DNA from: Nonlabens sp.
Lineage (GTDB): Bacteria; Bacteroidota; Bacteroidia; Flavobacteriales; Flavobacteriaceae
Direction of reading: 5' to 3'
Assembly (NCBI GenBank): GCA_020630715.1
Contig: JAHDIQ010000005.1
Coordinates: 201,367 to 265,366, forward strand
DNA: 64,000 bases
Positions 4,729 through 61,887 of the stretch are shown in pieces. A model generated the notes under the pieces. That model saw only the letters and a list, made by a program, of their open reading frames with translations. It made no database searches and was not told where the DNA came from. Each line of letters begins with the position of its first letter. The first letter of the stretch is position 1. The position numbers were made by a program, and so were the translations under genes.

Positions 4729-4744
4729 CGCTTTCGCGAAAGCG
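4729..4744. repeat. Dispersed palindrome CGCTTTCGCGAAAGCG (intergenic)
   Basis: Exact 16-bp palindrome in context gtgatta-CGCTTTCGCGAAAGCG-tcatt. Confidence 0.95.
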
Positions 4745-4855
4745 TCATTCTCTCCATCTAACTTTTATCTTTAAATCTAGTGTTTTCTAATGATATTTAG
4801 GTAGTTACTATTGTAAATTGCATTTAGTTTGTATCTTGTCACTCTAAAAAAATAA

Positions 4856-5368
4856 ATGATGAAAAAGATATTTTTAAGCTTATGTGTGGTTGCGACGATG
4901 TTCATTTCTTGTGACGATAATGCAAAAAGTACTACAAATACTCAAAGTATTGTAGGTAATTATGTGCTTACCAGCTTAGTGGCAGATGTGGCTGTGGACC
5001 TAGATCAAAATGGAACTAGTGATACACAATTAATGAATGAGACCACCTGTTTTGACAATGTAGCGATCACCTTTGACGCTAATGGCAATTTTACAACGAC
5101 GGTTTCTGAAGTAGGTTTTGACGCTAATAACGTTTTAACTTGTGCTACGATTGTAACTAGTGGTACGTATTCTATTGCAAATAGTGTTCTTACGATTACT
5201 ACACCTATTAATGGTGGTAGTGTGACAGAATCTAAGCAAGTAGTTCTAACAGCAACTACGCTAGAAATAGGTGCTACTGATGCAGAAGTTGCGCAATACT
5301 TTACAAACTCACCTGGTACGCCAGCAAGTGCGATAACACAGGTAGACGCAGTTTATACTAAGATTTAA
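4856..5368 (+). CDS. Lipocalin-like lipoprotein, hypothetical
   Basis: Signal MMKKIFLSLCVVATMFISCDD; IVGNYVLTSLVA...ITFDANGNFTTT resembles lipocalin-like domains. Confidence 0.7.
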   Translation: MMKKIFLSLCVVATMFISCDDNAKSTTNTQSIVGNYVLTSLVADVAVDLDQNGTSDTQLMNETTCFDNVAITFDANGNFTTTVSEVGFDANNVLTCATIVTSGTYSIANSVLTITTPINGGSVTESKQVVLTATTLEIGATDAEVAQYFTNSPGTPASAITQVDAVYTKI

Positions 5369-5395
5369 TCAGTTCTAATTTTAGGTGCAAATTAT

Positions 5396-5437
5396 AAAAC
5401 CCAATATCCTAAGAATCATCTTAAGATATTGGGTTTT
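5396..5437. terminator. Rho-independent terminator
   Basis: aaaacccaatatcctaaga / tcttaagatattgggtttt stem with A/T flanks. Confidence 0.8.
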
Positions 5438-5493
5438 ACATGTTTTATTGCTTGCTAAACTAGCCTGCCAATAATTATATTCAATGGGTGTGT

Positions 5494-5775
5494 TTACTCA
5501 CTAACGGCCACACCTTTCCAAAAAGCTACATAACCTTCTATTTGTTTTGCCGCATGTTTAGTTTCTGGATAATACCATGCAGCATCTTTATTACTAGTAC
5601 CATCTACTTCTAGAGAATAATAACTCGCAACACCTTTCCACGGGCAATTAGATTGTGTGTTACTATCTTTAAAAAATTCTTTTTTAATACTGCTCGCTGG
5701 AAAGTAATGATTGTTTTCTACTACGATGGTATCATTACTTTCTGCAATTATTTGATTGTTCCAAATGGCTTTCAT
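5494..5775 (-). CDS. DUF427 domain-containing protein
   Basis: MKAIWNNQIIAESNDTIVVENNHYFP...CPWKGVASYYSLEVDG...AWYYPETK matches DUF427 pattern. Confidence 0.9.
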   Translation of the reverse strand: MKAIWNNQIIAESNDTIVVENNHYFPASSIKKEFFKDSNTQSNCPWKGVASYYSLEVDGTSNKDAAWYYPETKHAAKQIEGYVAFWKGVAVSE

Positions 5776-5777
5776 AA

Positions 5778-7912: not shown

Positions 7913-7991
7913 AGTTAAATATCTTTTACAGAATCTAGACTGATAAGTACGATTTTTATGACATTTTTATAGAACTGGAGATCTACAGTGA

Positions 7992-9402: not shown

Positions 9403-9425
9403 AATGTTTGTAGATGTTTGGATTA

Positions 9426-9441
9426 CGCTTTCGCGAAAGCG
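9426..9441. repeat. Dispersed palindrome CGCTTTCGCGAAAGCG (intergenic)
   Basis: Within the 22-bp palindrome ttaCGCTTTCGCGAAAGCGtaa. Confidence 0.95.
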
Positions 9442-11870: not shown

Positions 11871-11884
11871 AGGTTAGTGTTAGG

Positions 11885-13764: not shown

Positions 13765-13780
13765 CGCTTTCGCGAAAGCG
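13765..13780. repeat. Dispersed palindrome CGCTTTCGCGAAAGCG (between etfB and etfA)
   Basis: Exact copy in tgtgatta-CGCTTTCGCGAAAGCG-aaata. Confidence 0.95.
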
Positions 13781-15926: not shown

Positions 15927-18446
15927 ATGATGATGAATTACGCTTTCGCGAAAGCGAAATACCAAAACCTCATTGCTCTAATATTTATATTAGTGACATC
16001 TACCATAGTTGCACAAACTAAAGTAGGTGGCGTGATCTATGATGAATATGGCGATACCGTACCATTTGCAAATGTGGTGTTTCCTAACTCTGGAGAAGGA
16101 ACTATTTCTAATGATGATGGACGTTTTTATTTACAATCTGATAATACCTATGATACTTTAGTTATTTCTTTTTTGGGTTATGAAACAACTACGATTCAAT
16201 TAGACAAAAAAGTGAATCTAGATTTAAGTATTACCTTAAAATCAGAAACTGCGGCGCTAGATGCTGTAGTTGTTTATTCTGGAAAGACGAGTAAGAAGAA
16301 CAATCCAGCGCTGGATATCTTACGTAAAGTCTGGGAAAACAGACGTAAAAATGGATTATCTCAATTCAAACAATATCAGTACGATAAATATGAGAAGTTA
16401 GAATTTGATATGAATACCATTGATAGTGCCATGATAAATTCAAAGCTATTCCGTGGGATGGAGTTTATTTTTAATTATGCAGATACCAGTGCCGTAACTG
16501 GTAAAACTTATTTACCCATTTTTATAAATGAATCACTAGCAACAGTTTATGGTGATAATGAAATTAATAAGGAAAAAACGAATGTAAAAGCAAATAAGAA
16601 TTCTGGTTTCTCAAACAATCAGACCATTATCGCTTTTGTTAAAGATCTTTATGCAGATATTGATGTGTATGAGCGCTATTTAAAGTTTTTTGAAAAGAGT
16701 TTTACTAGTCCGGTAGGTAAAAGTGGGATAGATACGTACAACTATGTATTAAAGGATACCGCAATGGTTGATGGTGTTGAGGCATATAACATTGTTTATT
16801 ATCCGCGTCGTAAAGGTGAGTTGACTTTTAAGGGAGATTTTTGGGTAGCTGCAGATAGTTATGCGATTAAAGAAATCAATTTACAAGCTACTAAAAGTGC
16901 TAATGTGAATTGGGTAAAAGAAATTTACATTGAGCAAGAATTTGATGTGCTTAATGATAGCTTATTTTTAATTACGCGAGATTACTTTATGAGTGATTTT
17001 GCGCTTAATAAAAAAGAATCTTCAAAAGGTATTTACGGTAAGCGCACTACACTTTTTGATAATTATGAGTTTGACATTGCAAAAGATCCAGAGTTTTACA
17101 GACGTAGAGTAAATGACTATGATCCAGAGATTTATGATCGTGATGAAGCATACTGGGATAAAAATCGTTTAGAACAACTTAATAAAGATGAGAAGCAAAT
17201 CTATACCATGCTGGATACCCTAAAGACAAATACAAAGTTTAAACGTTTGTATAATCTAGGAACGATTCTAGCTAGTGGATATTATGAGTTTGATGGGTTT
17301 GATGTAGGACCTATTTTTTCTGTATTCGGTTTTAACGATGTAGAAGGATTGCGACTGCGCGGTGGTGGACGTACCTTTTTCTCTTCAAATGATCTATGGC
17401 GACTTGAAGGTTATGGTGCTTATGGTTTTAGAGACGATCAGTTTAAGTATGGTATCGCTGGTAAATGGTTGCTAGATCGTAAAAGTAGATTAACCATATC
17501 AGGTGGTAATCGTAGAGATATTGAACAACTAGGTGCGAGTTTAACTAATACAAATGATGTGCTAGGACGTAGTCTAGCTTCTAGCGCATTAGTTACTGCT
17601 GGGAATGTAACTAGTTTATCTAGCATTAATTTATCCACATTTGCCGTGAGTTTTGAACCTAAATACAATCTGGAATTTAGACTAGGAACTAGTTATAGAA
17701 CGATTAAAAGTGGAAATCCAGATGTATTTAGTTTAGATTATTTTGATCCAGAATCACCTACAGGTATCGCTACAGAAACCCGACAAGCAGACGCTAGTTT
17801 AAGCATGACTTATACACCAGGTCGTAAAACATCAAATTATGGAGTAGATCGCACCTTAATTAATGGTGGTGCGTATCCTATATTATTTATGAATTACACT
17901 AGAGGATTTAAAGGAATTTTAGATAGTGATTTTGATTTTGACAAGCTACAGTTTTATTACAGTCATCCATTTCAGTTTGGGCCTTTTGGAAGGTTAACCG
18001 CTCGTGTAGAGGCTGGAAAAACTTTTGGTGCAGTTCCTTTAGCGCTACTGGATGTGGTTCCAGGGAACCAGACGTTTTTTAATATTCAAGGAACATTCAA
18101 TACCATGAATTTCTATGAATTTGTAAGTGATCAATATGTCACCATGCATTTGAATCATAATTTTAATGGTAGATTATTTTCTAGAATACCATTGTTAAGA
18201 GAATTGAATTTACGCGAGTTAGTAGGCGTAAGAGCCGTTTATGGTACCATAAGCGATGAAAATATAGCTTTAAATGCTAGCGGTTTAACCTATCAAGCGC
18301 CAGAAGATATATATTGGGAATACAGCGCTGGAATAGGGAATATCTTCAAAGTCTTCCGTCTAGACGTGAGTTTTAGAGGTGGATATAACTTTTTGCCAGA
18401 TGCCCGACGCGTTGCTGTGACTGGTAGTTTTGGGTTTACGTTTTAA
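15927..18446 (+). CDS. DUF5686 / carboxypeptidase-regulatory-like domain outer-membrane protein
   Basis: KVGGVIYDEYGDTVPFANVVFPNSGEGTISNDDGRFYL...LSFLGYETTTI then a long beta-barrel-like region. Confidence 0.9.
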   Translation: MMMNYAFAKAKYQNLIALIFILVTSTIVAQTKVGGVIYDEYGDTVPFANVVFPNSGEGTISNDDGRFYLQSDNTYDTLVISFLGYETTTIQLDKKVNLDLSITLKSETAALDAVVVYSGKTSKKNNPALDILRKVWENRRKNGLSQFKQYQYDKYEKLEFDMNTIDSAMINSKLFRGMEFIFNYADTSAVTGKTYLPIFINESLATVYGDNEINKEKTNVKANKNSGFSNNQTIIAFVKDLYADIDVYERYLKFFEKSFTSPVGKSGIDTYNYVLKDTAMVDGVEAYNIVYYPRRKGELTFKGDFWVAADSYAIKEINLQATKSANVNWVKEIYIEQEFDVLNDSLFLITRDYFMSDFALNKKESSKGIYGKRTTLFDNYEFDIAKDPEFYRRRVNDYDPEIYDRDEAYWDKNRLEQLNKDEKQIYTMLDTLKTNTKFKRLYNLGTILASGYYEFDGFDVGPIFSVFGFNDVEGLRLRGGGRTFFSSNDLWRLEGYGAYGFRDDQFKYGIAGKWLLDRKSRLTISGGNRRDIEQLGASLTNTNDVLGRSLASSALVTAGNVTSLSSINLSTFAVSFEPKYNLEFRLGTSYRTIKSGNPDVFSLDYFDPESPTGIATETRQADASLSMTYTPGRKTSNYGVDRTLINGGAYPILFMNYTRGFKGILDSDFDFDKLQFYYSHPFQFGPFGRLTARVEAGKTFGAVPLALLDVVPGNQTFFNIQGTFNTMNFYEFVSDQYVTMHLNHNFNGRLFSRIPLLRELNLRELVGVRAVYGTISDENIALNASGLTYQAPEDIYWEYSAGIGNIFKVFRLDVSFRGGYNFLPDARRVAVTGSFGFTF
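15941..15956 (+). repeat. Dispersed palindrome copy in the N-terminal codons of the DUF5686 gene (AFAKA frame)
   Basis: NYAFAKAKYQN encoded by tgatgaattaCGCTTTCGCGAAAGCGaaatacc. Confidence 0.95.
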
Positions 18447-18464: not shown

Positions 18465-18510
18465 TTACGCTTTCACTTCGACATTACTCAGTGACCGCGC
18501 GAAAGCGTAA
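18465..18510 (-). repeat. Insert-bearing (46-bp) variant of the dispersed palindrome
   Basis: ttacgctttc-acttcgacattactcagtgaccgcgc-gaaagcgtaa; reverse complement aligns with 53480..53525. Confidence 0.9.
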
Positions 18511-21148: not shown

Positions 21149-22177
21149 ATGGCACTTTTTAAACGTGATCCGTGGATTCTGGATGTATACCGTACTTATA
21201 GCGGTAAGCATCACTTATACGTACGCGGTCGCGCGCTAGAAGATCAGCCGTTGAAGCATTATGAGCAACAAACGCTCTACCAGACGGTACGCAATACCTG
21301 GCGTACGTTTAAGACTGATGAAATACGCAATGCCTTAGTCGTGCTTACTTTGCCTAATGGGAACCAATTTGAAACAAAAGCAGACCATGAAGGCTATTTC
21401 CTTTTTGATATACAACTAGATATCGACCTAGAAAAGGATACAGATCATGAAGGTTATCTTGATATTACGATGAGTTTTGATGAGGATAATGCCGCTTTTG
21501 CAAAAGCTAAACGTCAACAGCGTATTACCATCAATAAATTTAAAGGTGAAACACTCATTCCTAAATCTAGCGCTCAATATGGTATCATAAGCGATATCGA
21601 TGATACGATTATGCATACTGGCGTGACTAGTTTCTTAAAACTACGCGTTGCTTTTAATACGTTCTTTAAAAACTACGATCGCAGATTACCTTTAAAAGGT
21701 GCAGCGAGTTTATATCAACTATTACATCGTGGTACTTCTGGTAAGGATGAGAATCCTATGTTTTACTTAAGTAACAGTCCATGGAATTTATACAAATACC
21801 TAGAAAAATTTCTTGACTTTCACGGCTTTCCTAAAGGTCCTATTTTACTGCGTGATTTCCCAACACCATGGGATCGCACACCCAAGCTAAAAAGACCTCA
21901 CAAAGCCCATGAACTTATTAATATCTTAAAGCATTATCCGCAGATGAAATTCATTTTGATAGGTGATAGTGGTGAACATGATGCAGATTATTATAAAGAA
22001 GTCGCACAGCAATTTCCTGATCGGATCATGGCGATCTATTTACGATCTGTAAATCATCAAAAGAAAATGGATCGTGTGCGCAATATTGCAAGTTCCTTTA
22101 CGATTTGCCCTATGCTGTTAGTACAAGAATCTAGGGAAGCTGTAATGCATGCTCGCGATATGGGATGGATCGTTTAG
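21149..22177 (+). CDS. App1 (DUF2183) family phosphatase-like protein
   Basis: YGIISDIDDTIMHTGVTSF (DxDxT), FYLSNSPWNLY, FILIGDSGEHDADYY. Confidence 0.88.
   Translation: MALFKRDPWILDVYRTYSGKHHLYVRGRALEDQPLKHYEQQTLYQTVRNTWRTFKTDEIRNALVVLTLPNGNQFETKADHEGYFLFDIQLDIDLEKDTDHEGYLDITMSFDEDNAAFAKAKRQQRITINKFKGETLIPKSSAQYGIISDIDDTIMHTGVTSFLKLRVAFNTFFKNYDRRLPLKGAASLYQLLHRGTSGKDENPMFYLSNSPWNLYKYLEKFLDFHGFPKGPILLRDFPTPWDRTPKLKRPHKAHELINILKHYPQMKFILIGDSGEHDADYYKEVAQQFPDRIMAIYLRSVNHQKKMDRVRNIASSFTICPMLLVQESREAVMHARDMGWIV
21494..21507 (+). repeat. Decayed but still palindromic copy, GCTTTTGCAAAAGC
   Basis: Encodes AFAKA like intact copies; differs from GCTTTCGCGAAAGC by a symmetric C>T / G>A pair. Confidence 0.5.
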
Positions 22178-23146: not shown

Positions 23147-23935
23147 TTATTTCTTCTTCAGGTTGATCGGGTAAATTTCTAACTGGTCGTTGTGACAAAT
23201 ATAAAGTTTTCCCGCCTTAAGATAAAGGGATTCTAGGTTGTTTTTAGGTAGTGAGGTGGTGTTGATCTCGCTTTCGCGAAAGCGGAATTCACGATCAAAA
23301 TAATATCCTCTCCAGCCATCGCTAGTTTGTACTATTAATCGTTCAAAATCAAAGGCAAATTCATGTATCGCTCCTAATTCAATCCTACTGGTTTTACTGC
23401 CGTAGCTGTTGAAACTAATTACGGCATTATCTGTAATAAGATGGCAAAAATTATAATCTGTAGCGAGATCGTGAATCGTAGAGGTGATGGGAATACTGCT
23501 GGAAATAAGCCGGTCATTCACATAATCATAGAGTTCTATTTGAGAAATATCTGCATTAAAAAGCCATAAACGACGCTCACCAGCAAGTCGGGCTTCCTGA
23601 ATAAAACGTTGTGGTTTTAAGGTGCTTAAATCCAGTCGCAACTGTTCATTAAGTCGATTGTCTAGAATCACAATCGTTTGTGAATCCTGATAAAAAACAA
23701 GAATCTTTAATGGGTTGATCAAATCTACATGATGAATATCGCCTAGTTGCACATCAAAAAATTGCTGTGTTTCCCGATCTGATTTCTTGTATAAAGTCTG
23801 ATTTATAGAGTAATAAATATTTTCAAAATCATCCACTCCATGAAATTGATCACATACTAATTGCTGTAATGTAACCGCAGTTTGTCCCATCATCGTAGTG
23901 CAGATAAAATAAAAAATGTAAACTAATTTCTTCAC
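23147..23935 (-). CDS. Hypothetical secreted protein
   Basis: Intact ORF with signal-like N-terminus; carries a palindrome copy in frame (FRFRESE). Confidence 0.65.
   Translation of the reverse strand: MKKLVYIFYFICTTMMGQTAVTLQQLVCDQFHGVDDFENIYYSINQTLYKKSDRETQQFFDVQLGDIHHVDLINPLKILVFYQDSQTIVILDNRLNEQLRLDLSTLKPQRFIQEARLAGERRLWLFNADISQIELYDYVNDRLISSSIPITSTIHDLATDYNFCHLITDNAVISFNSYGSKTSRIELGAIHEFAFDFERLIVQTSDGWRGYYFDREFRFRESEINTTSLPKNNLESLYLKAGKLYICHNDQLEIYPINLKKK
23269..23284 (-). repeat. Dispersed palindrome copy inside CDS (RFRES frame)
   Basis: Exact CGCTTTCGCGAAAGCG. Confidence 0.95.
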
Positions 23936-26737: not shown

Positions 26738-27619
26738 ATGAAATCAATTTCTTTAAGTACGTTATTGTTGATTTGTTTCGCTTTCGCGAAAGCGTACACC
26801 GCACAAGCACAATCAGATTTTAAAGCAGTAGCAACTTATATGTCACAGACTAAAGTGGACATTAAACTAGATAGTGCTAAAACGGCTAAAATGAATAGCG
26901 ATCCCATGTATAAACAAATCATGGAAGGTTTAAGTAAGCCAAGTAATCAGGAATATAAACTAGAGTTTACAGCAACAGAATCCTCTTACGATGAGGTGAA
27001 AGAGTTGGCAACCCCAAAAAAACCTTCTAATGGAATTTCTATTTCTTTTTCGGCAAGTGGTGGAGTAGCTTCAACGATTTATAAAGATTTAAAAGCTGGT
27101 GAATACGTGAAACGAGAAAACATCATGGGTAAAGATTTTATCGTTACAGATAAGTTACCTACTTTCAACTGGCAATTGCATAACGAAACTAAGAAAATAG
27201 GGAATTTCACTTGCTTTAAAGCAACCTATGTTCCAGAACCCGATGTAGTAGTTGAGGAAGAAAAAGAGGAAACCGAAGAAGACAAAGAAGAAAAAATAGG
27301 ATTATTAGATATGGCTACATCAGATTACGATCCTACAATTACCGCATGGTATACACCAGATATTCAAGTAAGTAATGGTCCTGGTGAATTTCATGGATTA
27401 CCTGGACTCATTGTAGAAGTAAAACAAGACAATACGGTGATCCTATTACAATCTATTGAAATGAATCCAGAAAAAGAATTGAAATTAAATAAGCCTAAAG
27501 GTGGAAAGAAAATGAATCAGAAAGATTTTGACGCGTTGCAGAAAAAGAAAACTGAAGAAATGATGAAGAATCGTGGCTCTGGTAATGGAACCTTTAGAGT
27601 AATTAGCATAGGTGGCTAA
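26738..27619 (+). CDS. GLPGLI family protein
   Basis: Contains FHGLPGLIVEVKQD; signal peptide carrying FAFAKA. Confidence 0.92.
   Translation: MKSISLSTLLLICFAFAKAYTAQAQSDFKAVATYMSQTKVDIKLDSAKTAKMNSDPMYKQIMEGLSKPSNQEYKLEFTATESSYDEVKELATPKKPSNGISISFSASGGVASTIYKDLKAGEYVKRENIMGKDFIVTDKLPTFNWQLHNETKKIGNFTCFKATYVPEPDVVVEEEKEETEEDKEEKIGLLDMATSDYDPTITAWYTPDIQVSNGPGEFHGLPGLIVEVKQDNTVILLQSIEMNPEKELKLNKPKGGKKMNQKDFDALQKKKTEEMMKNRGSGNGTFRVISIGG
26779..26794 (+). repeat. Dispersed palindrome copy in the signal-peptide codons of a GLPGLI gene
   Basis: ICFAFAKAYTAQAQ encoded by tttCGCTTTCGCGAAAGCGtacacc. Confidence 0.95.
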
Positions 27620-34793: not shown

Positions 34794-35590
34794 TGCGTTA
34801 CCTACTCGTTATATGCATCAGTCTCTTATGGAGATGTCAATCTAAAATTCCTATGAAAACGACCATTCAATTAAATAATGAATCCTTAAACTGTGATTTA
34901 TCACAACCCATCGATATTAGTCTAGCCATTCAGCATCAGGATGGAGTAGGCGCGTGGTACATCGACCAGCCACAGATTAAACATGTTGAGGTAGATGGAT
35001 ATGTAGGTAATGTGAAATTAGGCGGTTCTACTAACTTTAATAATGTTCATTTTAATCCGCATAGTCATGGGACGCATACAGAATGTATAGGTCATATTAC
35101 ACCAGAATTTTACAGTGTGAATGATGCACTTAAAACTACTTTTTTTAAAGCGCAATTATTCACAATTTCACCACAACAACAAGGCGATGATCTAGTCATC
35201 ACCGCATCAATGTTTGATGATTTACAGGATGATGTTACTGCGGTTACCATCCGTACATTGCCTAATTCATTAGATAAAAAAGAGAAGAATTATTCTAACT
35301 CAAATCCACCTTATCTAGAAGAAGCTGCGGCATTACGCTTTCGCGAAAGCGGTATCAACCACATCCTTATAGATTTACCTAGTGTAGATAAAGAAAAAGA
35401 TAATGGTGCGTTGCGCGCTCATAAAGCGTTTTGGAATTACGATGGTGAGCAACGACTACAAGCAACGATTACAGAATTGATCTATGTGCCAGATCATGTA
35501 AAAGATGGATTGTATTTGCTGGATCTACAAGTGGCACCTATAGAAAATGATGCTGCGCCGTCGCGTCCAATATTATATCAATTATTATGA
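34793..35590 (+). CDS. Cyclase family protein (kynurenine-formamidase-like)
   Basis: HFNPHSHGTHTECIGHI; ALRFRESGINHILIDLPSVDKEKDNGALRAHKAFW. Confidence 0.85.
   Translation: MRYLLVICISLLWRCQSKIPMKTTIQLNNESLNCDLSQPIDISLAIQHQDGVGAWYIDQPQIKHVEVDGYVGNVKLGGSTNFNNVHFNPHSHGTHTECIGHITPEFYSVNDALKTTFFKAQLFTISPQQQGDDLVITASMFDDLQDDVTAVTIRTLPNSLDKKEKNYSNSNPPYLEEAAALRFRESGINHILIDLPSVDKEKDNGALRAHKAFWNYDGEQRLQATITELIYVPDHVKDGLYLLDLQVAPIENDAAPSRPILYQLL
35336..35351 (+). repeat. Dispersed palindrome copy inside cyclase-family CDS (RFRES frame)
   Basis: Exact CGCTTTCGCGAAAGCG. Confidence 0.95.
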
Positions 35591-36929: not shown

Positions 36930-38705
36930 TTGGAAACACTCATTCATACATATAATCAGCGTATTGAGACTCATAATTCTCTAGCCAGCGCCTTGCAAAA
37001 AAAGCTTTTTGCTAGCAGTATGTTTCGACTTGTCGTTTTTGTCGCTGGAGCTGTTGCGGTCTACTATTTATGGGCCTACTGGCAAGTTGCTGTCGCGATT
37101 GCTGTTGCTACCTTTGCTCTATTTTTATTTTTAGTTTCTAGACATGAGAATTTAAAGCAACAACGCAATTACCATCGTGCGATGGTTGCGATTAATGAAC
37201 GTGAAATTCAGGTTCTTAATGGAGATTTTCATAAACTACCAGACGGATCAGAATTCCTAAAAGACGATCACGAGTACAGCCGTGATATTGATCTTTTTGG
37301 TAAAGGCTCGTTTTTCCAATATTTAAATCGTAGTGTAACCAGAGATGGTGTGATTACGCTTTCGCGAAAGCTAACTAACAACAACCCAACTACTATTCCT
37401 CAAAAACAGGAAGCGGTAAAAGAACTGGCTACCAAATTAGATTTCAGGCAAACCTATGCCGCTACGGCGACTTTATTAGATAATGATAAAGAGCCAAAGC
37501 AGATGTTGCAATGGATTGAGGAATACAAATCTTTTGTACCATCGATGTACCGTTGGTTGCCTTGGGTGATATTTGTGGCTTCTATCGCCAGTGTGGTATT
37601 GTATTTCAATGATCTTATTAATGGCTGGTTTATCGCAGGAATTTTCTTTTTAGGTTTAGGAATTACTAGACATTTTTTAAAACAGATAAATGAGTTTAGT
37701 ATAGAAATTAGCAAACTAGAATTGTTTTTCCAGCAGTATAGTAAATTGATATTGAGCATTGAGAAAGAAGAATTTCAATCTGAATTACTGGTGGATTTAA
37801 AGAACAAAATCTTGACGACAGGTGATCCTGCATCGCAACGATTACAGCAACTTGCCAAAGCCATAGGAAGACTAGATCAACGCTACAATATGTTGTTTGG
37901 CATACTAGCAAACGGATTAGGTTTATGGGATTTAAAACAAGTGCATACCATTGAAAAATGGCTCATTGAAAATAAAGACCATGTGCGCAACTGGCTAGAA
38001 ACCGCTGCGCAAGTAGATGCTATGAACAGCCTAGGAAATTATTCCTATAATCATCCTAACTATGTATTTCCTGATATAGGAACTGGAGATTTCAAGCTAG
38101 AAGCGGTTGATGTAAAACATCCCTTATTAGATCCACAAAAAGCGATAGGAAATGACATTAATATTTCATCAGGTGAGTTTTTTATCATCACCGGTGCAAA
38201 TATGGCTGGGAAAAGTACGTTTTTACGCACTGTATCAATGACTATTGTGACGTCTAATGCTGGTTTACCTATCTGGAGTGATAAGGTAAGGTATAATCCT
38301 ATTAAGCTTATTACTAGTATGCGCACTAGTGATTCATTAACAGATGATGAGAGTTACTTTTTTAGCGAATTAAAACGCCTTAAATATATTGTAGATCGCA
38401 TTGATAACGATCGTTATTTTATAGTTCTTGATGAAATATTAAAGGGAACAAACAGTCAGGATAAGGCAAACGGCTCGCGCAAACTCATTGAGAAATTATC
38501 ACGTAAACACGCCACCGGAATCATCGCCACTCACGATTTAAGCCTCACTGAAGTAGCTCAAGAATATAATACGATTTCAAATTACTTTTTTGATGCAGAT
38601 ATCACAAACGATGTCCTCACCTTTGACTACAAGTTTAAAACTGGCGTCGCTTCAAATATGAATGCGAGTTTCTTGTTGAGGAAGATGGGTATTGTGGATG
38701 AGTAG
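36930..38705 (+). CDS. MutS-family DNA mismatch repair ATPase-like membrane-associated protein (TTG start)
   Basis: FFIITGANMAGKSTFLRTVSM; DDESYFFSELKRLK; FIVLDEILKGTNSQDKANGS. Confidence 0.9.
   Translation: METLIHTYNQRIETHNSLASALQKKLFASSMFRLVVFVAGAVAVYYLWAYWQVAVAIAVATFALFLFLVSRHENLKQQRNYHRAMVAINEREIQVLNGDFHKLPDGSEFLKDDHEYSRDIDLFGKGSFFQYLNRSVTRDGVITLSRKLTNNNPTTIPQKQEAVKELATKLDFRQTYAATATLLDNDKEPKQMLQWIEEYKSFVPSMYRWLPWVIFVASIASVVLYFNDLINGWFIAGIFFLGLGITRHFLKQINEFSIEISKLELFFQQYSKLILSIEKEEFQSELLVDLKNKILTTGDPASQRLQQLAKAIGRLDQRYNMLFGILANGLGLWDLKQVHTIEKWLIENKDHVRNWLETAAQVDAMNSLGNYSYNHPNYVFPDIGTGDFKLEAVDVKHPLLDPQKAIGNDINISSGEFFIITGANMAGKSTFLRTVSMTIVTSNAGLPIWSDKVRYNPIKLITSMRTSDSLTDDESYFFSELKRLKYIVDRIDNDRYFIVLDEILKGTNSQDKANGSRKLIEKLSRKHATGIIATHDLSLTEVAQEYNTISNYFFDADITNDVLTFDYKFKTGVASNMNASFLLRKMGIVDE
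37357..37371 (+). repeat. Dispersed palindrome copy inside MutS-like CDS (LSRK frame)
   Basis: ITLSRKLTNNNPTT; similarity to 45901 copy extends ~39 bp. Confidence 0.95.
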
Positions 38706-38800: not shown

Positions 38801-39937
38801 TTATCCTAAAATCCCTTTTTGCTTCTTATAAAAAGCATCTGCTTGATCTTGAATGAGTTGCCTTGCAATTTTACGTTTGTGGTTGTATAGTGCTTCTTCT
38901 TCGGCAATATCAGAATATACACGATTATTAACTGCTAGATCTGTAGCAACTAGAATATCTTGCTGTGATTTTTGCTGTGTTACCCATGACTTCACGAGGT
39001 CTTCGCGTTCTGCTAGTTTGAAATCATATTCACCTCTAGGTGCTAACAATTTAGCAATGATAGGTGAAGTTTCTATGGCTAGAAATAATAGGAATATAAA
39101 GAATGAAGTAATAAACGGTAGTTTGTTTAAAGCTTCAATACGTGCCATCAATCCGTCAAAGTTGTCAATGATAGGTTGTGAACTCGCCAGTTGCTCGTTT
39201 TCCTGAATTCCTAAGGTGGCTAGTTGGGCTTCTATTGCTGTGATTTTAGATTGATTTGTTTCTTTAAGTATTACTAAATCTGCAAGTGCGGCGTCGTGTT
39301 TCTCGCGTTTTTCTTTATACACAGGACCTTTCCCTAGTTTTTCGGTTCCTGCGGTTCCTTCTGCTTCAGAGATATAGATGTCGTAGAGTTCGTTTACTTC
39401 GCTTTCTTTTGTGGTGATCTCTGTTTTTAATTCTTGTATCGCTTTCGCGAAAGCGGACTCTTCACCAGCATAAAGGGCTGCAATTTGCTCTTGATTTTCT
39501 AGCGTCATGGCGTTCTTTTCTTCCAGTAATACCTGGTCAATTTCTTTCTCAAAAATCTTTAATTCAAGCGGCTTTGAAATCACTACCGCGATGATGATTG
39601 CTAGTAGAATACGTGGTGTAGCTTGCCATATTTCATTGATTTTACGATCATTTTTCTTTAAAGTAGAAACGATGTAACGGTCCAAATTAAATATCAATAA
39701 ACCCCAAATAAAACCGAAAAAAGTGGCAATCCACGCATTGTCAAAAACCGTGAATAAGGCATAACTAGCCGCAAAAAATGCCATCAAGGCTGTGAAAAAA
39801 ACAGTAGCTCCTATACCAGCGTATTTATTACGTTCACTAGCACTACAGTTGTCTAATAAAGGTGCGTCTGCACCACTACAAAAAATGAAAAAGGATTGCA
39901 TAACAAGGTGTTTTAAGTGGCGCGCTGTGCTTGCCAA
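38801..39937 (-). CDS. DUF4407 domain-containing membrane protein
   Basis: CSGADAPLLDNCSASERNKYAGIGATVFFTALMAFFAASYALFTVFDN; FGFIWGLLIFNLDRYIVSTL. Confidence 0.9.
   Translation of the reverse strand: MASTARHLKHLVMQSFFIFCSGADAPLLDNCSASERNKYAGIGATVFFTALMAFFAASYALFTVFDNAWIATFFGFIWGLLIFNLDRYIVSTLKKNDRKINEIWQATPRILLAIIIAVVISKPLELKIFEKEIDQVLLEEKNAMTLENQEQIAALYAGEESAFAKAIQELKTEITTKESEVNELYDIYISEAEGTAGTEKLGKGPVYKEKREKHDAALADLVILKETNQSKITAIEAQLATLGIQENEQLASSQPIIDNFDGLMARIEALNKLPFITSFFIFLLFLAIETSPIIAKLLAPRGEYDFKLAEREDLVKSWVTQQKSQQDILVATDLAVNNRVYSDIAEEEALYNHKRKIARQLIQDQADAFYKKQKGILG
39440..39455 (-). repeat. Dispersed palindrome copy inside DUF4407 CDS (AFAKA frame)
   Basis: GEESAFAKAIQEL. Confidence 0.95.
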
Positions 39938-44231: not shown

Positions 44232-44247
44232 CACTTTCGCGAAAGCG
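44232..44247 (-). repeat. Dispersed palindrome, one mismatch (intergenic)
   Basis: caCTTTCGCGAAAGCGtaatca; minus strand reads tgattaCGCTTTCGCGAAAGtg. Confidence 0.88.
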
Positions 44248-45569: not shown

Positions 45570-46673
45570 GTGATTCAACTTCACGACCTTTATTTTAAGC
45601 CCTATTTAAGCGCACAGCAAATAAGCGATGCCGTAGACAATTTGGCTTACCAATTGAACCGCGACCTCGCTGGTAAGAATCCTATTTTTCTGGGAATTCT
45701 CAATGGTAGTTACATGGTGCTGGCAGATCTGACTCGTAAATTTCAACACGATTGCGAGATCGCATTTTTACGCGCCAGTAGTTACTCAGGAACCAGCTCT
45801 ACCGGTGAGGTGACAGAGCATCTTCCGCTAGACGTGGACATTACAAATAGGGTAGTCGTTATCGTTGAGGATATTGTGGATACTGGATTGACGGTGGATA
45901 CGCTTTCGCGAAAGCTTACTAACCACAACCCAACTGCTCTTTACGTGGCAACCTTGTTTTTAAAACCTGAGGTCTATAATCGGGAATTAAAAATAGACTA
46001 CGTAGGACAAAATATTGAGAATAAATTTGTCGTGGGATACGGCATGGATTATAATAACCTAGGGCGCAATTTGCCCGAACTTTATGTACAAACACAGCGT
46101 ATGAAAAATATCGTACTCTTCGGTCCACCAGGTGCCGGAAAAGGAACACAAGCAGATCGTCTCAAAGAAAAATACAACCTCGTACACATTTCTACAGGTG
46201 ATGTTTTTAGATATAATATTAAGAATGGTACAGAACTAGGAACACTAGCAAAATCCTTTATCGATAAAGGACAGCTAGTTCCAGATACGGTGACTATCGA
46301 TATGTTACGTGCAGAGGTTGAGAAAACACCAGATGCAAACGGGTTTATTTTTGACGGTTTCCCACGTACTAATGCCCAAGCCGAAGCACTAGACGAGTTA
46401 CTTTCTACCATGAACACAACCGTGGCAGGAATGGTGGCGCTAGAAGTAGATGATGAAAGCCTAGTACAACGATTACTAGAACGAGGAAAAAGTAGTGGTC
46501 GTGCAGACGATGCAGATGAAGGCGTGATACGCAATCGTATTAAAGTATATTACGACGAGACTGCACCACTTAAAAATTATTACGAGGCACAAAACAAATA
46601 CCACGGCGTGAATGGTCTAGGATCTATTGATGAGATAACAGATCGACTGAGTGTGGAGTTTGATAAGCTTTAA
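45570..46673 (+). CDS. Hypoxanthine phosphoribosyltransferase fused to adenylate kinase (GTG start)
   Basis: N-term ILNGSYMVLADLTRKF...VVIVEDIVDTGLTVDTL...FVVGYGMDYNNLGRNLPELYV; C-term NIVLFGPPGAGKGTQADRLKEKYNLVHISTGDVFR...FDGFPRT; no stop between. Confidence 0.93.
   Translation: MIQLHDLYFKPYLSAQQISDAVDNLAYQLNRDLAGKNPIFLGILNGSYMVLADLTRKFQHDCEIAFLRASSYSGTSSTGEVTEHLPLDVDITNRVVVIVEDIVDTGLTVDTLSRKLTNHNPTALYVATLFLKPEVYNRELKIDYVGQNIENKFVVGYGMDYNNLGRNLPELYVQTQRMKNIVLFGPPGAGKGTQADRLKEKYNLVHISTGDVFRYNIKNGTELGTLAKSFIDKGQLVPDTVTIDMLRAEVEKTPDANGFIFDGFPRTNAQAEALDELLSTMNTTVAGMVALEVDDESLVQRLLERGKSSGRADDADEGVIRNRIKVYYDETAPLKNYYEAQNKYHGVNGLGSIDEITDRLSVEFDKL
45901..45915 (+). repeat. Dispersed palindrome copy inside the HPRT domain (LSRK frame)
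   Basis: VDTLSRKLTNHNPTA, directly after the PRPP-binding motif. Confidence 0.95.
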
Positions 46674-50915: not shown

Positions 50916-52208
50916 TTAGTTGTAGATTAAATATTGCGATCTAGTGGCTTTAAAAGTAGCTAAGCCTTGTTGCCAGCTAGCGCGTATTTCTTCGGCGGTT
51001 TTTCCTGCTTCTATTTGTTGTTGTAAGATTTTTGTTCCTGCCAGCTTTGTAAAAAAGGAGTTAAAAAAGTTTCTTTTTGATGGCGCTTTCGCGAAAGCGT
51101 CAACCAGAAAATCTAACTTTAATTGATCCAGCTTAGGATGTGTTCTTAGATCCATTCCAAAGCATTTTTTACCGTTATGCAACGGTCTTTTTGCACCTAC
51201 ATTAGGAGTAGGCGTAAAAGCAAAATCTTGATATTTTGCGAGTTGTGGTGATCCATAAACTTGAAATTGCATCTCTGTCCCACGACCTACACTTATATCT
51301 GTTCCCTCAAAGAAGCATAAGCTAGGATACAAATTAATCGCCTGATCATTAGGTAAATTAGGTGATGGTTTGATAGGTAAGCTGTAGTTCATATCACGTG
51401 AGTAATTTTTCATTTTTACCACTTCTAAGTTGCATTGTACACCATTTTCTAACCATTTTTCACCATTAATCATTTGTGCATATTCACCTATGGTCATTCC
51501 ATGTACCACAGGAACTGGATGCATCCCTACAAAACTTTTATACGCAGGTTCCAGAATGGGTCCATCTACATAATGGCCGTTAGGATTAGGTCTGTCTAGT
51601 ACAATGACTTTTTTATCAAGTTGAGCACAGGCTTCCATTACATAATGTAATGTTGAAATGTAAGTGTAGAATCGCGCTCCTACGTCTTGAATATCAAAGA
51701 TCACTACATCGACATCTTTAAGTTGGGTAGCCGTTGGTTTTTTATTACTACCGTAAAGAGATATGATAGGTAATCCTGTTTTAGAATCCATACCATCTTT
51801 AATCACTGCGCCAGCATCTGCCGTGCCTCTAAATCCATGTTCTGGGGCAAATACTCTGGTCACATTCACTTCACGACTTAACAAAGTATCTACTAGATGC
51901 GTGTAAGTCACCAGTTCTGGGTCATTCCAGTTGCCTTTGGCAGTTTTTTTCCCTGATCTAATAACGCTAGTTTGATTTCCTACTACTGCTACATTTTTAC
52001 CTGACAGCAGTTCAATCCATTCTTCTAGATCTTGCGCTGCAGGTTGTGGTTGTCCTTGTGGGACATCATTTGCATCAACAGACTTATCTGTGATTACAGG
52101 TACTGTAGTAGATCTAGATTTTTGCGCCGTTTTATCTTTATTATTTATGCTCGTATTACACGAAATAATGAGCAAGGCAATCGCGATTATGGTATATTTG
52201 ATCTTCAT
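50916..52208 (-). CDS. DUF1343 / NamZ-like exo-beta-N-acetylmuramidase family lipoprotein
   Basis: FAPEHGFRGTADAGAVIKDGMDSKTGLPIISLYGSNKKPT; DVVIFDIQDVGARFYTYISTL; PNPNGHYVDGPILE. Confidence 0.92.
   Translation of the reverse strand: MKIKYTIIAIALLIISCNTSINNKDKTAQKSRSTTVPVITDKSVDANDVPQGQPQPAAQDLEEWIELLSGKNVAVVGNQTSVIRSGKKTAKGNWNDPELVTYTHLVDTLLSREVNVTRVFAPEHGFRGTADAGAVIKDGMDSKTGLPIISLYGSNKKPTATQLKDVDVVIFDIQDVGARFYTYISTLHYVMEACAQLDKKVIVLDRPNPNGHYVDGPILEPAYKSFVGMHPVPVVHGMTIGEYAQMINGEKWLENGVQCNLEVVKMKNYSRDMNYSLPIKPSPNLPNDQAINLYPSLCFFEGTDISVGRGTEMQFQVYGSPQLAKYQDFAFTPTPNVGAKRPLHNGKKCFGMDLRTHPKLDQLKLDFLVDAFAKAPSKRNFFNSFFTKLAGTKILQQQIEAGKTAEEIRASWQQGLATFKATRSQYLIYN
51084..51099 (-). repeat. Dispersed palindrome copy inside the DUF1343 CDS (AFAKA frame)
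   Basis: LVDAFAKAPSKRN. Confidence 0.95.
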
Positions 52209-53479: not shown

Positions 53480-53525
53480 TTACGCTTTCGCGCGTCGCAC
53501 TGAGCTTGTCGAAGTGAAAGCGTAA
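53480..53525 (+). repeat. Insert-bearing (46-bp) variant of the dispersed palindrome
   Basis: ttacgctttcgcg-cgtcgcactgagcttgtcgaagtg-aaagcgtaa. Confidence 0.92.
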
Positions 53526-55339: not shown

Positions 55340-56623
55340 GTGCTTACAAAAATGCAAGAAGATTTCATTCACTATCTCTGGAAGTTTAAAAAACTAAGTG
55401 GTCTAGAATTACAGACGACTAATGGTGAATCTATTCTTATAGAATCCTTAGGAACTCATAACCATCACAGTGGTCCAGATTTCTTTAATTCTAGAGTAAC
55501 TATAGGTGATCAAAAATGGGCTGGAAATGTAGAAATGCACGTGAAGGCTAGTGACTGGTATTTGCACGGTCACGATGATGATCCAGCGTATGATAATGTT
55601 ATTTTACATGTGGTCTGGATTCATGATGCCGAAATTAATAGACGTGACCAAGTTCCTATACCGGTGTTAGAGGTAAGTAACTATGTGCCAGAACGCCTCA
55701 TTACATCGTATCGTAAATTATTTAGTGTAAAAAACGATCAATTCATTAACTGTGAGCGTGATTTCCCGTCCATTAATGAATTCAAACGCCAGCAGTGGTT
55801 TGAAAAGTTATTCATAGAACGACTAGAGTCTAGAAACCATAAAATCACCCAGCGATTAGAGCGCAGTAATAATGACTGGGAAGCGGTGTTTTTTCAATTG
55901 TTGTGTCGCAGTTTTGGCACAAAAGTAAATGCAGATGCCTTTGAGCAGTTAGCACAATCTATGGATCAGGCTACGGTGCGTAAATTAGCTCGTGATGCGT
56001 TTCAACTGGAAGCTACATTGCTAGGTCAGGCAAATTTGTTAGAGCCAGCACATCAGGATCCATATTATAAAGATGTGGTTCAGGAATACGCTTTCGCGAA
56101 AGCAAAATACGACCTACATCCAGCGCTAACACCTATGAAATTATTTAGACTACGTCCTGCAAATTATCCCACCATAAGAATATCTCAACTAGCAAGATTG
56201 TATCAGTTGCATCCACATCTTTTTGGCGAGGTGTTATTAGCTAAGACTCGAGATGAGATTCATCAACTTTTTGAGGTGAAAGCCTCTTTCTATTGGGACA
56301 CGCATCACCTTTTTGATAAGGAAGTTGCGCATAGGGAGAAATGGCTAACAAGTGCATTTGTAGATTTGGTGATCATTAACTTTGTGGTACCTATCAAATT
56401 TGCACATTCACAATTTACAAATAGCGATAAAACGGAAGAGTTACTGGAGTTGATGTATGCTATAAAACCAGAGAAAAACACGATCGTGAGTGGTTTTAGT
56501 AAGCTTGCTAAAGTCAATAATGCACTAGAATCACAGTCCGTATTGCAATTAAAACCTAATTATTGTGATCAAAATAAATGTTTAAGTTGTGATATAGGTG
56601 TGAGCTTAATTCATGGAGCATAA
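55340..56623 (+). CDS. DUF2851 family protein
   Basis: MQEDFIHYLWKFKKLSGLELQTTNGESILIESLGTHNHHSGPDFFNSRVTIGDQKWAGNVEMHVKASDWYLHGH. Confidence 0.93.
   Translation: MLTKMQEDFIHYLWKFKKLSGLELQTTNGESILIESLGTHNHHSGPDFFNSRVTIGDQKWAGNVEMHVKASDWYLHGHDDDPAYDNVILHVVWIHDAEINRRDQVPIPVLEVSNYVPERLITSYRKLFSVKNDQFINCERDFPSINEFKRQQWFEKLFIERLESRNHKITQRLERSNNDWEAVFFQLLCRSFGTKVNADAFEQLAQSMDQATVRKLARDAFQLEATLLGQANLLEPAHQDPYYKDVVQEYAFAKAKYDLHPALTPMKLFRLRPANYPTIRISQLARLYQLHPHLFGEVLLAKTRDEIHQLFEVKASFYWDTHHLFDKEVAHREKWLTSAFVDLVIINFVVPIKFAHSQFTNSDKTEELLELMYAIKPEKNTIVSGFSKLAKVNNALESQSVLQLKPNYCDQNKCLSCDIGVSLIHGA
56089..56103 (+). repeat. Dispersed palindrome copy inside DUF2851 CDS (AFAKA frame)
   Basis: QEYAFAKAKYDLH. 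Confidence 0.95.
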
Positions 56624-57924: not shown

Positions 57925-57996
57925 GTCGCTTAAAACTTTTATGGCGACGTATTTTTTTAGATATTGCTGTCTTAACTAAAAAAATAAATATTTAGG

Positions 57997-59796: not shown

Positions 59797-59807
59797 TTGC
59801 AATTAAT

Positions 59808-60659
59808 ATGAGCCTCAAATCCCTCTTTTTGTTTAATCGTAAACAACAAAGAGGGATTTTTGTTTTAATACTATTGATTGCAATATTACTTAGCTTATGG
59901 CTATGGTTGCGATCCAGACCACAGGAGTCGATAGAGCTTATTGATACTACTCAATATCAAACCCAGATCGATTCCTTGAAGCAAATAGCAGCTTCAAAAA
60001 AGAATAAGATTTATCCTTTTAATCCTAACTACATTACAGAATATCGTGCTTACACGATTAATCTTAATGATGAACAATTGGGACGATTAGAACGCTTTCG
60101 CGAAAGCGGAAAATTCATCAACTCTACTGCCCAATTTAAACAAGTTACTGGTGTATCACAATCTTGGCTGGACAGTATCAGCCCTTATTTTAAATTCCCA
60201 GAATGGGTTAATAAGCCTAGGAAAAGCTATTCTAATAACAGTTATAATAGAAAAATTGTTCCTAAAAACATCAATACTGCAACTCAAGATGAATTAAAAG
60301 CAGTCTATGGAATAGGTCCAGCATTATCCGGTAGAATTCTAGAAGAACGTAAACGGTTAGGCGCATTCATAGACCTGAAACAGGTGCGTGGTGTTTATGG
60401 TTTAACAGACTCTACAATGATTCAATTGCAAAAACATTTCTACGTAACCGCGCCAGCATCGTTTAGAAAATTAGCTTTAAATAAGGCGAGTAGGGATGAA
60501 TTGTTAAGCATTCCATATTTTAACGACTATTTAGTAGACCAGTTAATAAAGCAACGCACGTTACGGGATGGCTTTAAAAGCTGGGATAAAGTTGTGTTAA
60601 CATCCCGTTTCCCAGAAGAAAAATTGGAGTTAATTCAGCTATATTTGACATTAGATTAA
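59808..60659 (+). CDS. ComEA-like helix-hairpin-helix protein with N-terminal TM
   Basis: INTATQDELKAVYGIGPALSGRILEERKRLGAFIDLKQVRGVYGL. Confidence 0.88.
   Translation: MSLKSLFLFNRKQQRGIFVLILLIAILLSLWLWLRSRPQESIELIDTTQYQTQIDSLKQIAASKKNKIYPFNPNYITEYRAYTINLNDEQLGRLERFRESGKFINSTAQFKQVTGVSQSWLDSISPYFKFPEWVNKPRKSYSNNSYNRKIVPKNINTATQDELKAVYGIGPALSGRILEERKRLGAFIDLKQVRGVYGLTDSTMIQLQKHFYVTAPASFRKLALNKASRDELLSIPYFNDYLVDQLIKQRTLRDGFKSWDKVVLTSRFPEEKLELIQLYLTLD
59817..59860 (+). terminator. Terminator-like hairpin overlapping start of the HhH gene
   Basis: aaatccctctttttgttta atcg taaacaacaaagagggattttt, followed by tgtttt. Confidence 0.72.
60093..60108 (+). repeat. Dispersed palindrome copy inside ComEA-like CDS (RFRES frame)
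   Basis: RLERFRESGKFINS. Confidence 0.95.
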
Positions 60660-60679
60660 CAGTACCCAATAAACTTTTT

Positions 60680-61849
60680 ATGTATTCAAAATATTTTTCT
60701 GAAGAGCACAACGCTTTTAGACAGTCATTTAGAGATTTCTTAAATAAAGAAGCTGTCCCACACATTGAAAGATGGGAAGAGACCGGACAAATAGATCGTG
60801 AGATTTTTGAGAAAATGGGAGAGATGGGCTACTTTGGTCTGTACTATCCAGAAGAATACGGTGGACTGGACTTAGACTTTTTCTACACGGTAATTTTCCT
60901 AGAAGAAATGCAGCGCATTAATTCTGGTGGATTTGCAGCAGCTATGTGGGTGCAAGCATTTCTAGGTGCACAGCATCTATTAAAAGAAGGCGATGATCGT
61001 ATTAAACAAGAATACCTTGTACCTACCTTAACTGGAGAAAAAATAGGATGTTTAGGAATTACAGAGCCTTTTGGCGGTAGTGATGTTGCAGGTATGCGCA
61101 CTACGGCGGTTAAAGATGGTGATGATTATGTGATTAATGGTTCAAAAACCTTTATCACAAATGGTGTTTACAGTGATTATCTAGTAATCGCTGCAAAAAC
61201 AGATCCAGATGCAAAAGGTAGAGGGATTTCTATATTTGTGATGGATCGTGAAACCCCTGGAATTAGTGCTACTAAATTGAATAAGTTAGGATGGCGTGCA
61301 AGTGATACGGGTGAAATAGGATTTGATAACGTACGTATCCCAGCAGAAAATTTGATGGGTGAAGAAGGAAAAGGATTTCCTTATATCATGCAACATTTTG
61401 CGTTAGAACGTTTGATTATGGGAATTAATGCTCATGCCCGTGCAGAGTATGCTTTAGAATATACCGCGCAGTATATGAGTGAGCGTACAGCCTTTGGTAA
61501 GTCTTTAGATAAGTTTCAAGCCTTACGTCATAGCATGGCCGAAATGTATAGCGAGGTGGAAATGGCAAAGAATTTCAACTACAGCATTGCCGAGGAATTA
61601 GATAAAGGTCTATATCCAGTAAAGGAAGCCAGTATGTCTAAGCTTACTTCTACTAAGATTGCAGATGAGGTGATTTATAAATGTTTACAATATTTAGGTG
61701 GTTATGGTTATATTGAGGAGTATCCACTAGCGCGTATGTGGCGTGATAGCCGTTTAGGTCCTATAGGTGGTGGTACTAGTGAGATCATGCGAGAGATCAT
61801 TGCAAAAATGGTAATGGATGGTAAAGATTATAAGCCAGCCGCTAAATAA
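60680..61849 (+). CDS. Acyl-CoA dehydrogenase
   Basis: GCLGITEPFGGSDVAGMRTTAVKDGDDYVINGSKTFITNGVYSDYL; QYLGGYGYIEEYPLARMWRDSRLGPIGGGTSEIMREII. Confidence 0.95.
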   Translation: MYSKYFSEEHNAFRQSFRDFLNKEAVPHIERWEETGQIDREIFEKMGEMGYFGLYYPEEYGGLDLDFFYTVIFLEEMQRINSGGFAAAMWVQAFLGAQHLLKEGDDRIKQEYLVPTLTGEKIGCLGITEPFGGSDVAGMRTTAVKDGDDYVINGSKTFITNGVYSDYLVIAAKTDPDAKGRGISIFVMDRETPGISATKLNKLGWRASDTGEIGFDNVRIPAENLMGEEGKGFPYIMQHFALERLIMGINAHARAEYALEYTAQYMSERTAFGKSLDKFQALRHSMAEMYSEVEMAKNFNYSIAEELDKGLYPVKEASMSKLTSTKIADEVIYKCLQYLGGYGYIEEYPLARMWRDSRLGPIGGGTSEIMREIIAKMVMDGKDYKPAAK

Positions 61850-61871
61850 GTAATAAACGTATTTTATATTT

Positions 61872-61887
61872 CGCTTTCGCGAAAGCG
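61872..61887. repeat. Dispersed palindrome (intergenic, upstream of rpsU)
   Basis: tatttCGCTTTCGCGAAAGCGaaata. Confidence 0.95.

Follow-up and report, generated by a model that had tools for sequence, protein, structure and literature searches.

To our knowledge, no uptake sequence is known outside the Pasteurellaceae and Neisseriaceae, and the Nonlabens motif described here would, if it is one, be the first. The uptake sequences of Haemophilus influenzae are evenly spaced, with 65% in ORFs and an excess in non-coding DNA, and the described uptake sequences are non-palindromic (PMC1939737). The DUS of Neisseriaceae occur as dialects (PMC3630211). For HIP1, the cyanobacterial palindrome GCGATCGC, Elhai has put forward a methylation and repair model (PMC4390886). 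Riemerella columbina prefers its own DNA, and no established motif was found by its authors (PMC7965970).

The palindrome and its distribution

The window, i.e., the whole 64-kb stretch of DNA that was analysed, contains 15 exact copies and one single-mismatch copy of GCTTTCGCGAAAGC, a 14-letter perfect palindrome (Table 1). All 15 exact copies claimed in the original prediction were found, each starting one base to the right of where it had been placed, and the single-mismatch copy, two decayed copies and two insert-split copies were recovered as well. The chance expectation had been put far below one, which held even with two mismatches allowed: at that stringency the window has 18 copies, whereas 100 dinucleotide shuffles gave 0.13 on average and never more than 2. 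Of the 15 exact copies, 11 fall within ORFs, as had been read by eye, and Pfam bore out the protein names checked against it, i.e., DUF5686, Porph_ging/GLPGLI, HemN-type radical SAM, cyclase, MutS_V, DUF4407, NamZ (formerly DUF1343), DUF2851 and HHH_3. The three peptides that the palindrome was said to encode are all used, AFAKA 28 times, RFRES 20 and LSRK 14 in 464 kb. The two-mismatch copy at 21494, judged by matching flanks, looks orthologous to an exact copy in genomes G001 and G011.

Table 1. Motif copies and transformation-family genes in the window
Feature	Position	Strand	Context
Two-mismatch copy, GCTTATGCGAAAGC	1601..1614		
Exact copy	4730..4743		Intergenic
Exact copy	9427..9440		Intergenic
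Exact copy	13766..13779		Intergenic
Exact copy	15942..15955		DUF5686 ORF, close to its start
Split copy	18468..18507		24-bp REP-like insert (TTCGAC..CTCAGTG type) at CGCTTTCGC^GAAAGCG
Two-mismatch copy, GCTTTTGCAAAAGC	21494..21507		
Exact copy	23270..23283		ORF without Pfam match
Exact copy	26780..26793		GLPGLI/Porph_ging gene, AFAKA, N-terminal region
Exact copy	32958..32971		HemW/HemN-like gene, RFRES
Exact copy	35337..35350		Cyclase gene, RFRES
Exact copy	37358..37371		MutS-like ATPase gene, LSRK
Exact copy	39441..39454		DUF4407 gene, AFAKA
Single-mismatch copy, ACTTTCGCGAAAGC	44233..44246		Intergenic
Exact copy	45902..45915		ORF 45570-46673 (HPRT-Adk in the original prediction)
NamZ (PF07075, formerly DUF1343) gene	50916..52208	-	Motif copy inside; family of RA0C_RS09020
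Exact copy	51085..51098		NamZ/DUF1343 gene
Split copy	53483..53522		24-bp REP-like insert (TTCGAC..CTCAGTG type), identical position CGCTTTCGC^GAAAGCG
Exact copy	56090..56103		DUF2851 gene
HHH_3 ComEA-like protein gene	59808..60659	+	Motif copy inside; domain type of RA0C_RS02645
Exact copy	60094..60107		HHH (ComEA-like) gene
Exact copy	61873..61886		Intergenic

Statistics for the source genome (Nonlabens, Flavobacteriaceae) were taken from 464 kb, plus whole-genome counts. That genome has 609 copies and none of the reversed-motif control, which rules out a near-chance count. The enrichment extends well beyond the window, as all 22 other Nonlabens genomes are densely motif-bearing; copy numbers in the 23 genomes searched run from 288 to 857, and four Dokdonia MAGs have 385-740. 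Other Flavobacteriaceae genera have mostly zero or few copies, often within horizontally acquired metal-efflux islands; there the motif marks the origin of the DNA, at host-like density in the best case. Leeuwenhoekiella genomes have 7-29 copies, some of which, in the same codons as Nonlabens copies, are apparently relics. The cyclase-gene copy, for example, is kept in six Nonlabens loci and is a 13/14 relic in three Leeuwenhoekiella loci. No copy was found in two Nonlabens phages, and the phage and plasmid collections searched gave no relevant match. Some low-GC contigs carry 2-3 copies. A scan of other genera for a similar motif found none of similar strength; a weaker CTTCGGAA/TTTCNGAAA excess was seen in Aequorivita, Salinimicrobium and Marixanthomonas. 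The motif strings were unreported in the literature searched, the scope of which lay mostly outside subscription journals. The pattern looks like the self-tags by which some bacteria select DNA for uptake, and we found no earlier report for this branch of life.

The conserved information extends past the core. G/T-rich flanks lengthen each half-site to ~23 bp, with the form 5'-(G/T-rich, ~12 nt)-ATTACGCTTTCGCG, so that information spans ~46 bp. The ATTAC part of the half-site differs among species, being ATTAC in the source genome and ATTCC or ATCTC in genome G002; the flanks thus vary by species as DUS dialects do. No covariation was seen between the left and right flanks, and the extended half-sites are independent. 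An order-2 Markov model applied to one strand suggested that half-sites are avoided, a signal that was gone with both strands and order 3.

A palindrome with a G+C-rich core, very abundant in coding and non-coding DNA alike, invites comparison with HIP1, in which case DNA methylation and methyl-directed repair would create or maintain it. We regard this methylation-linked role, one of four candidates in the original prediction, as very improbable. Information reaching ~46 bp speaks against it, and so does the mild excess of TCGCGA elsewhere, with just 56 non-motif occurrences to 38 expected. Further, the two methylase families searched, PF01555 and PF00145, are patchy: no member is common to the dense-motif genomes, and neither family is present in genome G009, which has 563 copies. 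The one-mismatch copies are not concentrated at the ends of the motif, as they would be in a HIP1-type palindrome, with 4 of 15 mismatches terminal and 11 internal, a small number. Finally, mutation acting on each site autonomously would yield random spacing and does not predict the repulsion between sites described next.

Spacing, conservation and turnover of the sites

Sites occur on average once per 4-6 kb and are evenly spaced, with a coefficient of variation of 0.50-0.53, compared with 0.98 for random placement. No gap shorter than 1 kb was found among 93 in the source genome (17.6 expected) or among 201 in four Nonlabens relatives (34 expected), i.e., 0 of 294 in the five genomes pooled against ~50 expected. 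The evenness remained extreme when the coding or intergenic class of each site was retained in the null. In the 464 kb, 62 copies are coding and 34 intergenic (65% and 35%); intergenic DNA makes up ~9% of the sequence and is enriched 4-fold for the motif. Convergent-gene spacers hold 5 of the 34 intergenic copies and form 14% of intergenic DNA, so they are not enriched. As a palindrome with part of its copies between genes, the motif could be a bidirectional transcription terminator or RNA hairpin, but the 65% of copies within genes, the unenriched convergent spacers and the lack of flank covariation leave that explanation scarcely credible.

The core is 98-100% conserved, while the flanks are near or below background. 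In ordered aligned comparisons the motif was exact in 473 of 559 (85%), versus 26% of control 14-mers at a species identity of 87.6%; the non-exact cases had 1-3 substitutions or 1-2 bp deletions. Near-misses are scarce, with 15 one-mismatch copies to 96 exact in the 464 kb. DNA shared between species carries 0.19 sites per kb and unshared, species-specific DNA 0.055 per kb (p = 0.008).

The abundance of the motif would suit a mobile or selfish micro-repeat of the RPE or REP kind inserted in genes and spacers, and the split copies suggest that small elements move in these genomes. The 559 ordered comparisons, however, include no empty site, and motif-free homologues align codon for codon with the motif-bearing genes. 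The HemW/HemN-like homologues, for example, lack the motif and align gap-free across it, and the MutS-like ATPase copy is missing from other Nonlabens loci where the alignment again has no gap. The selfish micro-repeat that the original prediction had entertained is thus unsupported, and we hold it to be extremely improbable.

Evenly spread sites might instead anchor a nucleoid- or chromosome-organising protein, a putative dimer with a ~46-bp footprint. The two-fold symmetry of the site, its independent extended half-sites, the strict core conservation, the even spacing and the scarcity of near-misses are all consistent with such a protein, and we consider it a possible, rather doubtful explanation. 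Noc, SlmA and MatP sites are conserved palindromic protein sites with tens of copies and an ori/ter bias. No clear bias of this kind was seen around the closed genome G002, in which 20 stretches, not placed relative to ori and ter, gave 0-7 copies per 20 kb without a clear trend. Further, a 4-fold intergenic enrichment and fewer sites in unshared DNA are what one would sooner expect of uptake sequences, the motif is limited to a few genera, and no candidate protein was found. A more specific version, slightly more doubtful again, is a chromosome-wide ruler of ~600 evenly spaced, two-fold symmetric anchor sites for a putative nucleoid organiser in Nonlabens and Dokdonia, on which REP-like elements would land.

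One site per 4-6 kb is also near the density of Chi in E. coli, and G/T-rich flanks and a lower density in unshared DNA would fit a recombination-control site read by a helicase-nuclease, the palindrome allowing reading in both directions. Known Chi sites are 5-8 bases long, asymmetric and read on a single strand. A 14-bp core symmetric in the double strand, with extended flanks, is far longer, and we think a Chi-like role very improbable.

Transformation genes and the uptake reading

The role that we favour is that of a DNA uptake, or self-recognition, sequence; from the pattern of its sites, the palindrome probably acts like one. HIP1, mobile repeats and terminators all fit less well than this reading. 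Of the four roles that had been offered without a choice among them, it is the best supported, by the even spacing, the 65/35 split between coding and intergenic DNA, the positional conservation, the origin of sites by substitution, the scarcity of sites in unshared and phage DNA, and the occurrence of transformation gene families, two of them in the window.

Transformation in Riemerella requires RA0C_RS09020 and RA0C_RS02645, and a gene pair of DUF5689 and CarboxypepD_reg outer-membrane type is essential there (PMC8459023). At the level of gene content, ComEC, DUF5689, CarboxypepD_reg, HHH and NamZ genes are all present, with the DUF5689 gene adjoining the CarboxypepD_reg outer-membrane-type gene. 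No type IV pilus motor (T2SSE/PilB) scored above cut-off in any motif-bearing genome searched, so the pilus was ruled out as uptake route and a ComP-type receptor cannot apply. DUF5689 was considered as a species-specific receptor and set aside: its alignment and tree gave no clear motif-bearing signature, and the tree did not separate motif-bearing from motif-free genera. We found no motif-binding protein, nor any transformation or uptake assays on these organisms.

We infer extracytoplasmic binding of the motif, a stimulating effect of the motif on uptake, and its maintenance by the resulting bias in the DNA taken up. A putative surface or periplasmic receptor would read the motif in extracellular double-stranded DNA, seeing two mirror-image half-sites of ~23 bp each, and the Bacteroidota-type, pilus-independent transformation machinery would favour site-bearing DNA for import. 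By recombining, the imported DNA would keep old sites perfect and let new ones spread, most strongly where there is no neighbouring site. Spread favoured away from existing sites would leave one site per 4-6 kb and very few less than 1 kb apart. Several observations argue against uptake. Motif-free genera have the transformation gene families as well; genome G189 has only 13 core copies despite having ComEC and DUF5689; and a near-invariant 14-bp core with scarce near-misses is stricter than we would expect of known uptake sequences. The absent pilus motor, the palindromic form, the DUF5689 tree and the failure to find a binding protein or an uptake assay weigh against it too.

If the motif is an uptake sequence, it would be the first known palindromic one, read by machinery without type IV pili, and it would suggest an independent origin of sequence-marked self-DNA exchange in the Bacteroidota. 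It also offers the family of R. columbina a concrete, testable sequence for own-DNA preference.

Comparison with known systems

Like HIP1, the Nonlabens motif is a highly iterated palindrome of genes and spacers; unlike HIP1, with its 8 bp and shared orphan methylases, it has a 14-bp core, long G/T-rich flanks and no shared PF01555/PF00145 methylase. With Rickettsia palindromic elements and REP it shares palindromy and dispersal, and with RPE tolerance within genes, but those are insertions, whereas the Nonlabens sites come and go by small mutations and leave no empty sites. Noc (NBS), SlmA (SBS) and MatP (matS) sites are likewise conserved palindromes of comparable length spread over the chromosome; the Nonlabens sites differ in numbering ~600 without clear bias. 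DUS are non-palindromic, bound by the pilin ComP and act in inverted pairs as terminators, features for which no counterpart was found; like DUS, the Nonlabens motif is genus-wide, has species-level dialects, is kept while its flanks diverge and is enriched in the core genome. USS of H. influenzae and other Pasteurellaceae have a non-palindromic core, lie ~1 kb apart and depend on type IV pilus machinery, while the Nonlabens palindrome lies 4-6 kb apart in genomes without a pilus motor. The likeness to USS is one of sequence pattern: both have hundreds of copies or more, ~65% of them in ORFs with an intergenic excess, and both are evenly spaced, strongly conserved, degenerate in the flanks past the core, and rarer in recently acquired DNA.

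Abundance and taxonomic range of the motif

The original prediction of 15 exact copies of the motif, GCTTTCGCGAAAGC, in the window was borne out as to number, with copy coordinates that were one base too low. The near-copies were one with a single mismatch and two with two mismatches, and 100 dinucleotide shuffles of the window gave a mean of only 0.13 matches with ≤2 mismatches. The genome-wide count set as a check gave 609 exact copies in the source genome (2.98 Mb, 17 contigs) versus 0 for the reversed control. By a simple ORF script, 62 copies in 464 kb of this genome were genic and 34 intergenic, though intergenic DNA is only about 9%; intergenic copies were not concentrated between convergent genes. 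As predicted, genic copies used all three reading frames. The window's MutS-like protein shared 67-68% identity with Nonlabens proteins and no more than 55% with others; motif counts of same-genus genomes also agreed with those of named Nonlabens records, and the source organism is accordingly a Nonlabens.

All 22 of the 22 other genomes of the genus carried the motif, at 288-857 copies each; named Nonlabens records had 487-701 and four Dokdonia MAGs 385-740. Among 399 family genomes sampled, the 12-mer core was dense in just two genera besides that of the source genome (genomes G235, 445, and G251, 917). Leeuwenhoekiella records held 7-29 copies and the Flavobacteriaceae MAG M30B29 17; none was found in the Salinimicrobium, Aequorivita, Cellulophaga and Arenibacter records examined, nor in two related Nonlabens phages. 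Three Leeuwenhoekiella loci had a 13/14 match within the cyclase gene, at the codons of the Nonlabens motif; the alignment suggests a decayed ancestral site, and the match may instead have arisen independently. Where counts were low in motif-poor Flavobacteriaceae genera, copies were frequently clustered. Metal-efflux islands with such clusters encoded an RND pump, a TolC-like protein and a P-type ATPase (roles read off translated sequences), and a pair of copies 933 bp apart recurred within the TolC-like gene. The clustering and this recurrent pair suggest transfer from a motif-bearing donor. Separately, some low-GC viral contigs with the motif could represent prophages or host sequence from motif-bearing genera. 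Other iterated words were also seen in the family: the CTTCGGAA/TTTCNGAAA excess is possibly a different iterated motif, and the CCTTGCAGG/CCTTGTAGG words of Arenibacter are probably a REP family.

Features and loci (G, genome; C, contig; L, compared locus; G000, source genome)
Feature	Position or loci	Observation
Split copies	window 18468-18507; 53483-53522	motif halves parted by a small REP-like palindromic insert at CGCTTTCGC^GAAAGCG
Further inserts at CGCTTTCGC^GAAAGCG	L336, L339, L340, L342, L344, L330	
Longest motif-free gap, sampled source genome	G000:C16:171781-184830	13 kb; mostly a single giant gene, ~3,978 codons
Metal-efflux islands, motif-poor Flavobacteriaceae	L116-L126; G120:C3:32-110 kb; G331:C4 and C5	clustered motif copies
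Low-GC viral contigs	L184, L198, L215, L238	two or three motif copies each
CTTCGGAA and TTTCNGAAA	L044, L048, L052, L055, L057, L059, L062, L068, related loci	4-7-fold excess of CTTCGGAA, excess of TTTCNGAAA; Salinimicrobium, Aequorivita, Marixanthomonas, Cochleicola
CCTTGCAGG/CCTTGTAGG words	L064, L072, L080, L089, L098, L099, L111, L115	plentiful; Arenibacter

Conservation, extent and interruption of the site

Sites were compared across 280-kb stretches of four Nonlabens species (87.6% identity). The exact motif was kept in 473 of 559 ordered comparisons (85%) versus 26% for control 14-mers, each species pair entering in both directions so that comparisons are not independent. The changed sites had 1-3 substitutions (74) or 1-2 base deletions (12), and none of the 559 was an empty site. 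In a smaller set, identity was 98-100% at distances 1-7 from the motif centre and near or under background at distances 8-24. In protein alignments with motif-free genera, the motif arose via codon changes, with no gaps inside it. Unshared DNA was the poorer in motif copies, at 0.055 per kb versus 0.193 in shared DNA (binomial p = 0.008).

Beyond the core, each half adds C-[A/T]-T-T-A, followed by G/T-rich sequence that reaches about 23 bp from the centre; coding and intergenic copies share this layout. A comparable G/T bias was found in G002, Dokdonia-type and G235 sequences. No covariation linked the left and right flanks. This weighs against a long stem; we infer that a two-fold symmetric reader recognises the site as double-stranded DNA. 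The preferred flank varied by species in the manner of a dialect: ATTAC in the source genome, ATTCC/ATCTC in G002.

At least three unrelated REP-like palindromic inserts occurred at one motif position, CGCTTTCGC^GAAAGCG, across several Nonlabens species, and the split copies retained the G/T-rich flanks. TTCGAC..CTCAGTG elements lay inside the motif in two of three cases (464 kb, source genome), as did all three AGTTTATCCTGAG elements found (400 kb, G002). This looks like target-specific insertion. A gapped pattern matched 7 times in the source genome, 39 in G004, 38 in G007 and 27 in G014 (the last three compared genomes), some matches being an intact site beside a half-site.

Spacing, candidate roles and comparison with uptake sequences

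Across 464 kb of the source genome, 93 gaps between copies had a CV of 0.51 versus 0.98 for random placement, and none was under 1 kb versus 17.6 expected; the evenness persisted when the null preserved coding and intergenic classes. Four related Nonlabens gave a CV of 0.53 over 201 gaps, with 0 under 1 kb versus 34 expected. Genomes G022, G006, G251 and G002 were also evenly spaced, the exceptions to wide spacing being one pair 109 bp apart in G002 and one 571-bp gap in G006; regularity was not significant in the 80 kb of G235 examined. Twenty evenly placed 20-kb stretches of the closed genome G002 held 0-7 copies each, with no evident trend round the chromosome.

The strongest clue is this mutual repulsion of the sites. 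Site-by-site mutational or insertional mechanisms are disfavoured because they predict random spacing, and a HIP1-type origin via a methylase is disfavoured because PF01555 and PF00145, the two methylase families searched, were not common to the dense genomes. Biased uptake followed by recombination could generate repulsion, since a new site adds little beside an existing one. The main rival, a structural (nucleoid) role on the chromosome, predicts repulsion as well; we consider it rather unlikely, and the motif is probably a DNA uptake sequence.

In the Flavobacteriaceae, Riemerella anatipestifer transformation requires ComEC, DprA, ComF and RecA, a DUF5689 surface protein and a CarboxypepD_reg outer-membrane protein from one operon, and an HHH and a DUF1343 protein (PMC8459023); R. 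columbina favours its own DNA (PMC7965970). The source genome encodes ComEC, and its DUF5689 gene (477 aa) is co-oriented with, and immediately follows, a CarboxypepD_reg gene of 946 aa. The window itself contains HHH and NamZ/DUF1343 genes, and the motif copy inside each counts little at one copy per 4.9 kb. These putative counterparts of the Riemerella genes are family-level matches. DUF5689 is present in motif-free genera too, and it was set aside as the specificity factor, its tree giving no division between motif-bearing and motif-free genera. The type IV pilus motor family fell below cut-off in every motif-bearing genome searched. H. influenzae uptake sequences likewise lie mostly in ORFs (65%), with an excess in non-coding DNA and even spacing (PMC1939737), and a roughly even distribution is the expected outcome of molecular drive via uptake (PMC7811141).
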